From Verrucomicrobiales bacterium (GTDB taxonomy: Bacteria > Verrucomicrobiota > Verrucomicrobiia > Limisphaerales > UBA11320): 64,000 bases of DNA. Positions 4,436 to 64,000 of the stretch are shown piece by piece; positions within the stretch are counted from its first letter, which is position 1; the number at the start of each line of letters is the position of its first letter. Location: positions 1 to 64,000 of the forward strand of contig JAEUHE010000031.1 of NCBI GenBank assembly GCA_016793885.1, read 5' to 3'. Position numbers and translations under genes: made by a program. The notes below the pieces were generated by a model, which was not told where the DNA came from, made no database searches, and worked only from the letters and a program-made list of their open reading frames with translations.

Positions 4436-4485
4436 CGCTATTCACGAAGCGTTGCCAGAACCTCGCTAGAAAGTGGTCGGGAATG

Positions 4486-4560
4486 AAATTCTCATAACCC
4501 CTTTCCATCCGAGTCATTCGAGAAATCCGTGGTGAAAACTCCTTGTTTTCGGGTTCAACT
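4486..4560 (+). repeat. Dispersed ATCCGTG-type repeat, copy 1 (diverged)
   Basis: About 75 bases just after the beta-helix gene match copies near 33.85 kb and 55.44 kb. A C-rich lead-in is followed by the core ATCCGAG-TC-ATTCGAG-AA-ATCCGTG-GT, which is three 9-base units with two changed bases, and then an A/T-rich tail. The core begins near 4508. No protein is encoded here; the rest of 4436-4674 holds nothing else I can recognise. Confidence 0.7.
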
Positions 4561-23987: not shown

Positions 23988-24034
23988 AGTCATCCGAGGA
24001 ATCCGTGGTTAAAACCGCCGTTTTAGGTTCCTCT
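23988..24034 (+). repeat. Dispersed ATCCGTG-type repeat, copy 2 (short)
   Basis: Bases near 23992-24011 read ATCCGAGGAATCCGTGGTT, followed by a tail and TTTTAGG. One 9-base unit is missing relative to the copies near 33.88 and 55.46 kb. Just after it, from about 24048 to 24075, is a different but similar modular sequence (CTCTGCGCCTCTTCCCGTCTCTGCGG in outline). Confidence 0.6.
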
Positions 24035-24118
24035 GGAATCGGTCTTCTCTGCGCCTCTTCCCGTCTCTGCGGTGCATATCAGTCCCGTTGGGTCTCTTGG
24101 CTGAGTTGCGGGTCCACG

Positions 24119-33690: not shown

Positions 33691-33788
33691 GACGGAGAGG
33701 AGGATAGATCGCCTGGCCACCCGGGTTCTAGGCAAATGAGCATGTGCCGCTCCGGCAACCACAACGCTGAACCTAAAAAGGAGAATGG

Positions 33789-33907
33789 AACCACGGATTG
33801 CTCGGACACCTCACTTTTCTCAAAGGGACTGCGATCCCCCGCTAAGGAATATCACAACCCCTTCCTGATCCGTGTCATCCGTGAAATCCGTGGTGAGTCC
33901 ATTGCCA
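33789..33907. repeat. Dispersed ATCCGTG-type repeat: full copy plus inverted partial copy
   Basis: At about 33867-33894 the full core ATCCGTG-TC-ATCCGTG-AA-ATCCGTG-GT is present (three 9-base units), with lead-in ATCACAACCCCTTCCTG and tail ending TTTTAGGG. About 60 bases earlier, 33789-33811 carries AACCACGGATTgctCGGACAC, which is the same core in opposite orientation with one unit altered. The pair flanks a short stretch next to the end of the dcw cluster. Confidence 0.75.
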
Positions 33908-33940
33908 GTTTTAGGGCAAACCCGATCCGCACGCCGGACG

Positions 33941-53598: not shown

Positions 53599-54675
53599 GT
53601 GCGGACGGCCGACTTTGACTATCCATTGCCTGAATCGCTCATCGCCCAAGCTCCGCTGGAGCGACGCGATGATTCTCGACTGTTGGTCCTGGATCGAAGC
53701 CGGCCCGAACTCGAGCACCGCCACTTTCGCGACCTGGTCGAACTCCTGCCGAGCCCTGCCCTCCTTGTTTTCAATGACTCGAGGGTCATCCGCGCTCGCT
53801 TGCGGGCACAAAACTCCCAGAGTAGCGGGCTTTTTGAAGTATTGTTGCTGGAGCAGAACCAAACCAACGACTGGTGGGCGATGGTGCGTCCGGGCAAACG
53901 GGCCAAAATCGGCGGGAGCTTGATCCTCCGCCATCCAGCTCGCGGGAACACCGGCATCGTGGCCCGCGTCACCGAGATCAACGACGAAGGACATCGCCGA
54001 CTCCTCTTCAGCGGAACTCGCGATCTGCTGGCCGAACTCGAGGAACTGGGCGAGCTTCCACTCCCCCCCTACATCGAACGGCCCGCTGGATCGCGCGACC
54101 CGCGGGATGATGCACGTTACCAAACGATCTATGCCGGCCAGCCTGGATCGATCGCTGCGCCCACGGCGGGCTTGCACTTCACCCAAGAATTATTGGCAGC
54201 ACTGGAAGCGCGGGGAGTGAAACTAGCTCGCACCACATTGCACGTCGGCGCTGGCACGTTCGCTCCCGTAAAGTCCGAGCGCATATCGGACCATCACATG
54301 CACAGCGAGTGCTACACACTCGACGCCATCAACGCGGAAAAAATCAATCAAGCCCGTCAGACAGGAACACCCATTATCGCGGTGGGAACCACAACGCTGC
54401 GAGTTCTGGAAAGCATCGCCAGACTCAATCCCCATGGCATCGCGGCCACCCAGGGAAAGACGGACATCTTCATCTATCCGCCGGCCGAGTTTCTGGTGGT
54501 CACCTCGCTCATCACCAACTTTCACCTACCGCAATCAACGCTCCTCATGCTGGTCAGCGCCTTCGCCGCCCCGGGTCGAACCGAAGGCCGGGAGAAAATC
54601 TTGAACGCCTACGGTGAAGCCATCGAAAAGCGCTACCGCTTTTTCAGCTACGGGGACGCCATGTGGATCCGATGA
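53599..54675 (+). CDS. queA: S-adenosylmethionine:tRNA ribosyltransferase-isomerase
   Basis: A 358-aa QueA, which transfers and rearranges the ribose part of SAM onto 7-aminomethyl-7-deazaguanine in tRNA, giving epoxyqueuosine. The start VRTADFDYPLPESLIAQAPL is family-typical; other marks are LVFNDSRVIRARL, PLPPYIERPAGSRDPRDDARYQT around the active site, GSIAAPTAGLHFT and LHVGAGTFAPVKSE, then LITNFHLPQSTLLMLVSAFA. The GTG at 53599, with AGGAAG upstream, was chosen over a TTG at 53557 because family proteins begin there. The stop overlaps the next start by four bases (ATGA). Confidence 0.96.
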   Translation: MRTADFDYPLPESLIAQAPLERRDDSRLLVLDRSRPELEHRHFRDLVELLPSPALLVFNDSRVIRARLRAQNSQSSGLFEVLLLEQNQTNDWWAMVRPGKRAKIGGSLILRHPARGNTGIVARVTEINDEGHRRLLFSGTRDLLAELEELGELPLPPYIERPAGSRDPRDDARYQTIYAGQPGSIAAPTAGLHFTQELLAALEARGVKLARTTLHVGAGTFAPVKSERISDHHMHSECYTLDAINAEKINQARQTGTPIIAVGTTTLRVLESIARLNPHGIAATQGKTDIFIYPPAEFLVVTSLITNFHLPQSTLLMLVSAFAAPGRTEGREKILNAYGEAIEKRYRFFSYGDAMWIR

Positions 54676-55460
54676 GGAAACGCCCGCTCAACTCAGGAAC
54701 AGCCCGGCCGTGGGTGTCCCTCAACATGGCGATGACCGCCGATGGAAAGATCGCCACCGAGAATCGCCAGGTCGCCTCATTCGGAAGCCGCGCCGACCAC
54801 GACCAACTCTACCAGCTCCGCGCGCGCGCCGATGCGGTGATGACCGGCGCGGGCACGATCCGCCAGCAGAACGCGGATCTGAACAGCGGTGGGCCACGCT
54901 ATCAGCGATTGCGGCGTCAGAACCACCTTCAACCCGAGAACCTACGCGTCGTGGTGAGCGGCTCCGCGCAACTCGATCTCGGGTCGAGGCTATTTCACGA
55001 ATCCGGTGGCCCCATCATTCTGCTCACCACCACCCAAACACCCGCACGCCGTTTGAATCTGCTGAGAAAGGCGAACGTGCAGGTGGGACAGTTTGGCGAC
55101 CGAGAAGTGGATCTCAACGCAGCGTTGATCTGGCTGCGCGAACACTGGCAAGTGCACCGCCTGCACTGCGAAGGTGGCGGTGAACTGAACGACGCCATGT
55201 TCCGAGCCGACTTGGTGGATGAGCTCTACCTCACGGTCTGCCCGCTGATTTTTGGCGGCAAGCTGGCTCCCACCATCGCGGACGGCAAAGGTTTCGAGCG
55301 ACTGGCGGAAGCGACGCAACTGGAGTTTGTCTCCGTTCGACAGGAAGGCTTGGAACTGTTTCTGAAACTCCGCAGATCCGCCAAGACTTGGAAGGAAGAC
55401 CCTCATCACCCTGAGAGGGAGTGCGAACTCGTGCTCAAGAATGTCACGATACCTTCTTAA
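54672..55460 (+). CDS. RibD C-terminal-type reductase
   Basis: A 262-aa protein of the RibD reductase/dihydrofolate reductase-like fold. In riboflavin synthesis the family uses NADPH to reduce the ribosyl side chain of the pyrimidine intermediate. Marks are RPWVSLNMAMTADGKIAT (14-31), ADAVMTGAGTIRQQNADL and LHCEGGGELNDAMFRADLVDEL, VCPLIFGGK. There is no N-terminal deaminase domain, so it is not a complete RibD. It starts at the ATG that overlaps queA's stop. The last 25 residues (about 238-262), after LFLKLRRSAK, look unrelated to the family; the reading frame runs into the dispersed ATCCGTG repeat, which provides the TAA stop. Confidence 0.85.
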   Translation: MRKRPLNSGTARPWVSLNMAMTADGKIATENRQVASFGSRADHDQLYQLRARADAVMTGAGTIRQQNADLNSGGPRYQRLRRQNHLQPENLRVVVSGSAQLDLGSRLFHESGGPIILLTTTQTPARRLNLLRKANVQVGQFGDREVDLNAALIWLREHWQVHRLHCEGGGELNDAMFRADLVDELYLTVCPLIFGGKLAPTIADGKGFERLAEATQLEFVSVRQEGLELFLKLRRSAKTWKEDPHHPERECELVLKNVTIPS

Positions 55461-55510
55461 TCCGTGTCATCCGTGAAATCCGTGGTTCATCCATTCCCGG
55501 ATTTAGGTTT
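55437..55510 (+). repeat. Dispersed ATCCGTG-type repeat, copy 4
   Basis: The full core (three ATCCGTG units spaced by TC and AA) lies at about 55461-55488, with lead-in GTCACGATACCTTCTTA and a tail ending TTTAGG. The stop codon of the reductase gene lies in its lead-in. A weaker echo, ATCCGTGTGGTCCGCGTCGTCCGTGGG in outline, follows at about 55587-55613. The rest of the 258-base gap to the next gene contains the GCACGCAGTGCC repeat. Confidence 0.75.
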
Positions 55511-55672
55511 AGCTTGGTTTGCGGGCAACCCATTCCCGGTTCCAGGGTAAAGTCGCTCGGCCCGACCCGGGCAAGTTCCTCTTCAGATCCGTGTGGTCCG
55601 CGTCGTCCGTGGGCAATAGGTCCCCGCTCCGATTTCCGATGGCCCGTTATCGAACGTTTACGTAGCCTCCCC

Positions 55673-63702: not shown

Positions 63703-64000
63703 GATTCACGCCGTTGTTCCCAACGAATCGATACAGATTGATCCCCCCCTGCTCCCCCAACGGATCCCTATTTAGCCAACCCCTTTCAGCAGGACCACTT
63801 CCCGTGGTCCGACCCCGCGACTCTTCCATCATGAAGTAGCGCTTATCGATACTGATAGTCGCCGCGAATTTTAGAGATTAGCGTCCTTAGCGTCCATTGC
63901 GGTTCAACCTAGAAACGGCTGCGGCTCGGCATCGTTCCCGAAATCGGTCCTAGCCTTACACCCGTGGCAACCGACGCATCGATCTGACGGTGACAAGCGG
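63703..64000. other. Right-end gap: repeat arm and modular AGCGTCC sequence
   Basis: No gene is seen in the last 298 bases. It holds the right arm of the 29-base direct repeat (63751-63779). Further on, near 63872-63898, is a modular sequence in which AGCGTCC occurs twice before TTGCGGTT, comparable in style to the ATCCGTG repeats elsewhere in the window. Confidence 0.5.

Follow-up and report, generated by a model that had tools for sequence, protein, structure and literature searches.

Tn7- and Mu-like transposon ends carry several transposase-binding sites as direct copies in each inverted end. MITEs are short, non-coding elements with inverted ends and target-site duplications, which show insertion polymorphism between related genomes and share their ends with an autonomous transposon. 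REP/REPIN sequences are short palindromes recognized by GTAG or CGTC tags and by RAYT (Y1) genes flanked by the repeat, and they are dispersed between genes, form inverted pairs with a loop, and are patchy between species. RAYT genes with long flanking TIRs and dispersed TIR copies are also known, and in these TIRtrons/TIRYT the long inverted repeats are dispersed as a family, some of them being self-complementary (Di Nocera 2013, PMC3733652). The repeat analyzed here consists of ATCCGTG-nn units in threes; each triplet makes up an arm, and two arms in inverted orientation face outward as a pair. It is similar to Tn7/Mu-like ends in having several direct unit copies, here putative binding sites, in each inverted arm, but its units are far shorter (9 bp), and it has no transposase genes and no known tip sequence. 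It is similar to MITEs in being short and gene-less, with inverted ends and many intergenic copies, and in one relative (G057) its form has tips and 9-bp target duplications; it differs in that a partial search found no gene-carrying parent, in that the family of the host genome lacks target duplications, and in that its arms hold internal triple 9-base direct repeats, which are common to phyla while the tips differ. It shares dispersal, intergenic placement, inverted pairing around a loop, and patchiness with REP/REPIN sequences, but a single arm is a tandem ATCYGTGnn array rather than a palindrome, no GTAG or CGTC tag was present in the host-genome, Solimonas, or mixed copies, and the Y1 genes examined were not flanked by it. 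The consensus described for the TIRtrons/TIRYT, GGGGWSAS (PMC3733652), differs from the arm motif, and no flanked gene was found here. No published description of the repeat was found by sequence or by concept in the open-access literature, and figures or other literature could hold one; the element is apparently undescribed.

In the window, the whole 64-kb stretch of DNA analyzed, the two-unit pattern ATCCGTGNNATCCGTG, allowing up to 2 mismatches, has 9 matches versus 0.55 expected, and 0 of 100 shuffles reached 9. The following features were located:

33772-33915, + strand: whole element of the R1 family (covariance model R1), with ends CCTAAAA / TTTTAGG
33772-33778, + strand: left tip, with the sequence CCTAAAA; the right tip at 33909-33915, TTTTAGG, is its complement
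33791-33807, - strand: partial left arm, with outer unit CCACGGAT and a degenerate second unit
33868-33893, + strand: right arm with three perfect 9-base units, ATCCGTGtc-ATCCGTGaa-ATCCGTGG
55375-55508 (left border approximate), + strand: element without left arm, fused onto the 3' terminus of an ORF with a RibD_C domain
55460-55485, + strand: right arm of the 55.46-kb element, a perfect triplet
55587-55612, + strand: second triple-array type, ATCCGTG-tg-GTCCGCG-tc-GTCCGTGG
4480-4553 (borders approximate), + strand: element represented by its right half, whose arm at 4507-4532 is degenerate
23989-24030, + strand: single right arm with tail CGTTTTAGG and convergent genes on both sides
24047-24074, + strand: related 9-base array, CTCTGCGcc-tcTTCCCGT-CTCTGCGGTG
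63878-63904, + strand: related 9-base array, TTAGCGTCC-TTAGCGTCC-ATTGCGGTT

The element at 33772-33915 matches model R1 at 33773-33916 (109.8 bits, E 1e-22), lacks about 30 bases of the left arm and centre relative to the 175-bp consensus, and folds as one long hairpin (z -3.7 versus shuffles). The sequence-only reading of this DNA had proposed ATCCGTG triplets at four sites, and they are perfect at 33868-33893 and 55460-55485, degenerate at 4507-4532 (ATCCGAG-TC-ATTCGAG-AA-ATCCGTGG), and reduced near 24.0 kb to two clear units (23992-24008), the third being too degenerate to count. The reversed partial copy that it had noticed at 33.79 kb is present at 33791-33807 and is the opposite arm of the same element. 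The tail TTTAGG occurs as proposed at 33.9, 55.5, and 24.0 kb and pairs with the CCTAAAA at 33772, but the 4.5-kb copy has only TTTTCGG. All copies lie between genes, as had been claimed, but the one at 55.46 kb (R1 match 55337-55508, E 2e-26) abuts the stop of the RibD_C ORF and supplies its last codons. In this ORF (54663-55460), Pfam RibD_C spans residues 16-228 of 265, and the protein tail, AKTWKEDPHHPERECELVLKNVTIPS*, corresponds to the centre of the repeat element; the last ~25 residues and the stop codon were apparently gained from it. The AGCGTCC pair near 63.88 kb and the CTCTGCG sequence near 24.05 kb were both found where they had been reported, and the two arrays are 9-base-period relatives that both end in GCGGT. 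The CTCTGCG type also occurs in a congener (G001), where it is paired with an inverted partner. The 55587-55612 array, which was absent from the earlier list, belongs to a type that also adjoins elements on contig C14. Pfam domains present in the window include FtsZ, SBBP, and CHB_HEX_C, which, together with the neighbours, suggest Verrucomicrobiota.

The host genome is an 8.7-Mb draft with 60% G+C. A genome-wide search found 162 triple arms (78 and 84 on the two strands), with none for the reversed-pattern control, and 273+263 two-unit matches versus 9+15 for the reversed control, which bears out the earlier description of a dispersed, modular repeat with 9-base units. Covariance model R1, built from ten copies, gave 97 matches (best E 1e-44), which count both strands of near-palindromic copies and represent about 60 elements. 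The consensus of ~175 bp reads tip, outer TTAACC, three CACGGATnn, a centre of ~80 bp, three ATCCGTGnn, GGTTAA, and tip. The copies are many and have common ends, where a handful with no shared borders would have told against the earlier reading. Many arms occur singly. The sequence-only reading missed the outward-facing inverted pairing and the mobile-DNA behaviour described below; its observation is confirmed, and its interpretation is supported. In the element centre, about two-thirds of 21 host-genome copies (L057-L081) keep a weak open frame, KTWKEDPHHPERECELVLKN, with 73/77/111 differences by codon position, and this frame may derive from the tail of a captured gene or be a remnant that is translated.

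Consistent target duplications were looked for in the host-genome family and were not seen, so the case for its mobility comes from copy number, dispersal, and analogy. In congeners of the window genome, the flanks available for an empty-site comparison are only ~70% identical, too little for the comparison to be informative. Filled and empty sites were distinguished in Solimonas (Gammaproteobacteria), in which S. marina has 49 arms, one congener (G124) has 23, and nine others have 0-4. The first site, between genes read from the flanks as putative pseudouridine-synthase-like and HAD-like genes, is filled in S. marina and empty in G122, G130, and G121, with ~20-30 bp between the genes. The second, between putative helicase-like and MoxR-like genes named in the same way, is filled in S. 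marina and empty in G124 (~20-30 bp). The element was gained or lost at these sites between species of one genus, with flanks too diverged for the junctions to be placed at base level, and the difference may reflect loss rather than gain. On contig C28 of S. marina (L452), three tandem arms recur together with intervening sequence at a spacing of ~180 bp.

In G057, the arm pair is held by ~40 copies of a 224-bp MITE with ends GGGTGCAACTCAC...GTGAGTTGCACCC, and exact 9-bp target duplications, e.g., CTCAGCAGC, GCCGACCAC, and ATAGCACAT, accompany most of the copies that have both flanks. Amplification within a MITE with 9-bp target duplications was seen in this one genome only, and its arms may simply have been carried along by a MITE of unrelated origin with the tip GGGTGCAACTCAC. 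The copies come from one recently amplified element, are 91-100% identical, and carry 3+3 units as a rule, with 4+3, 3+4, and 3+1 also present, and the changes always involve whole units, 9 or 18 bp. Whole units are therefore gained and lost by slippage or unequal exchange, and the slippage-based growth proposed earlier is seen directly here; this variation in unit number is a natural length polymorphism. At L389 (G057 contig C110), a second palindromic repeat lies inside the loop of one MITE copy as a nested insertion. That the repeat is mobile DNA is well supported.

The triplet occurs in 45 of 97 genomes of the same order, with 0 to 186 copies each: 162 in the host genome, 186 in G057, 104 in G055, and 0 in many relatives, the congeners of the window genome having only 0-5 each. 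A scan of 84,980 species genomes with ATCYGTGNNATCYGTGNNATCYGTGGT yielded at least 120 stretches versus ~0.06 expected by chance for a pattern with 20 fixed and 3 two-fold positions on both strands of 257 Gb. Among the matches listed, which come mostly from MAGs and in some cases from isolates, are Verrucomicrobiota, Planctomycetota, Bacteroidota, Chloroflexi, Acidobacteria, Firmicutes, and Gammaproteobacteria, with record names that include Verrucomicrobia, Bacteroidaceae, Muribaculaceae, Prevotella, Anaerophaga, Spirochaetaceae, Gemmatimonadetes, Aminicenantes, Desulfosporosinus, Solimonas, and others. The remark in the sequence-only reading that similar sequences exist in other environmental genomes was correct yet understated, since many phyla are involved. 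The 24 genomes reached via named records have 1-148 copies each, and the reversed control gave 0 in all 24. Loops and flanks vary by lineage and the arms do not. When neighbouring arms up to 120 bp apart were compared after removal of duplicates, 170 pairs faced outward, 18 faced inward, and 39 lay on the same strand. The arm had no match in 5,426 E. coli genomes. Arms also occur on Bacteroides plasmid records, and a 111-kb contig from a viral collection, with terminase-like and head-maturation genes, bears several arms, so phages could be a vehicle. Large phage-like contigs (L307, L309, L333, and L341) carry arms in intergenic gaps, and two of them have PcfJ/PcfK genes. In Anammoxibacter, Anaerophaga, and a Phycisphaerales MAG (L202, L204, L186, and L192), arms are embedded in mosaics of degenerate 6-9-base repeats such as GCTTTT, AACCTC, and GCCGTT.

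The best explanation, to which we assign a probability of roughly 0.6, is that these are non-autonomous, MITE-like mobile elements whose nonamer arms are binding sites of a protein provided in trans. An element spans ~80-230 bp and comprises two outward arms of about three 9-base units each, ordered from inner ATCYGTGnn to outer ATCYGTGGTT, a variable loop, and lineage-specific tips. Copies are scattered between genes, mostly near stop codons. The arms would be bound by a candidate recombinase or transposase acting in trans, and each arm would offer about three successive sites nine bases apart. Such binding would account for a 7-base unit that is conserved between phyla alongside two spacer bases, a loop, and tips that are free to vary. 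The simplest reader of the arms would be a protein that recognizes sites of 7 bases spaced in steps of 9, and our best guess is that the arms are binding sites of a dedicated protein. A single 27-base intergenic motif with constant period, phase, and outward pairing is present in tens to hundreds of copies in many phyla; if the arms are protein-binding sites, a widespread DNA-mobilizing protein awaits discovery, and if they are not, the parallel occurrence calls for another explanation. The question can be tested with arm-rich genomes that have arm-free relatives and with the isolate genus Solimonas, in which sites are filled in one species and empty in others.

A broader form of this explanation, which we put forward tentatively and consider doubtful, is that the nonamer array serves as a code recognized by a recombination or transposition system that is undescribed and has spread horizontally, with different units matched by versions of one protein family. 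The units would include ATCCGTG, ATCTGTG, ATTCGTG, CTCTGCG, and TAGCGTC, among others, each with a GTGG or GCGG end, and the protein versions would act in trans across bacteria and their phages. A wider unit pattern, NTHNGYG, is found in the examined loci (CTCTGTG, ATCTGCG, ATTCGTG, CTTTGCG, and others) with equal period and a GG end; such units are lacking in Markov-shuffled loci, the sample itself having been chosen by the ATCYGTG motif. Judged by form, the arrays that the window holds at 24.05 and 63.88 kb belong to this wider group.

Outside the mobile-element explanation, the arms could be functional RNA or DNA hairpins at gene ends, i.e., bidirectional terminators, mRNA stabilizers, or processing sites under selection. 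The elements have long hairpin potential (z -4.8 and -3.7 versus shuffles), although this strong fold follows from the arms being inverted copies and alone is no proof of RNA function. Stop codons are close, with median distances of 15 bp in Solimonas and 39 bp in a mixed set, by crude gene calls. By gene calls based on the longest ORF, copies in the host genome lie in 19 convergent, 15 tandem, and 1 divergent gaps, the single divergent case among 35 comparing with ~6 expected from gap length, of which divergent gaps make up about one-sixth. Against a conserved hairpin, unit positions are mostly >90% conserved and spacers ~50% in the host-genome and diverse pairs, and the left and right spacers of one element resemble each other no more than those of different elements in that genome do (P 0.32 in the host genome and 0.71 in Solimonas). 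Within genomes, the arms do not covary, and compensatory pairing of the arms was not seen. The outer spacers of arm pairs do match across unrelated genomes, which is explained by shared descent. Conserved units with spacers that do not covary fit a recognized sequence better than a conserved hairpin RNA; what is kept thus appears to be the sequence, read unit by unit, and not the hairpin pairing. In addition, single arms are common, presence varies between congeners, and a terminator would not need an identical 21 bases in distant phyla. The sequence-only reading had named membership of a known non-coding RNA family as an outcome that would undo it, and no Rfam family matched the repeat above the gathering threshold, the only Rfam match in the window being a tRNA located elsewhere. 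A hairpin function is unlikely.

About as unlikely are inert, satellite-like arrays that arise by slippage and, with no enzyme dedicated to them, spread along with phages, plasmids, and IS elements. Unit slippage is real, arms do occur on phage contigs and Bacteroides plasmid records, and those of G057 ride in a MITE, but unrelated phyla, whose loops and flanks differ, have the same unit in the same phase and three-fold number, with the same outward pairing and GGTT end, and passive spreading fails to explain this recurrence.

Similarly improbable, and already weakened, is a REP/REPIN-type system, in which a Y1 (HUH) transposase, either a RAYT or a TIRYT, would move the arms as (degenerate) REP or TIR sequences. 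In view of REPINs and TIRYTs (PMC3733652, PMC6006769), Y1 transposases (PF01797) had been the strongest initial candidates for the mover. An inverted pair around a short loop resembles a REPIN, long-TIR-flanked RAYT genes with dispersed TIR copies have a precedent (PMC3733652), and all 15 relatives without a Y1_Tnp gene, among 97, also lack arms (Fisher P 3e-5). Genome size accounts for most of this association, since the rank correlation between Y1 count and arms is only 0.24 (P 0.017) when size is held constant. No arm lies in the loci examined around the Y1 genes, which extend up to 1.5 kb on either side (0 of 6 in the host genome and 0 of 13 in Solimonas), G124 of Solimonas lacks any Y1_Tnp match despite its 23 arms, G017, G038, and G069 have 14-30 Y1 genes and no arms, and the arm is a direct repeat rather than a tagged palindrome. 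A Y1/RAYT association was rejected on these grounds in the host genome, the relatives, and Solimonas. A partial search of the loci examined and the listed coordinates, including S. marina, found neither a copy with a gene between its arms nor an autonomous transposon with the same ends. Pairs of outward arms at distances of 350-4500 bp gave 12 candidates for an autonomous copy, and those at examined loci enclose no transposase gene. The single candidate with an exactly fitting ORF (L307, 7381-8352) holds a radical-SAM-like phage gene, which makes it a chance neighbour. Adapter or primer contamination was rejected, since the copies vary, occupy different genomic contexts, and have target duplications.

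At least two of the Y1 genes in the host genome, at L051 (contig C14) and L052 (contig C153), lie amid palindromic repeats of their own (CCCAGGCTGGG and CCGGCTAATCTCTGG, respectively) and are ordinary REP-RAYT candidates.
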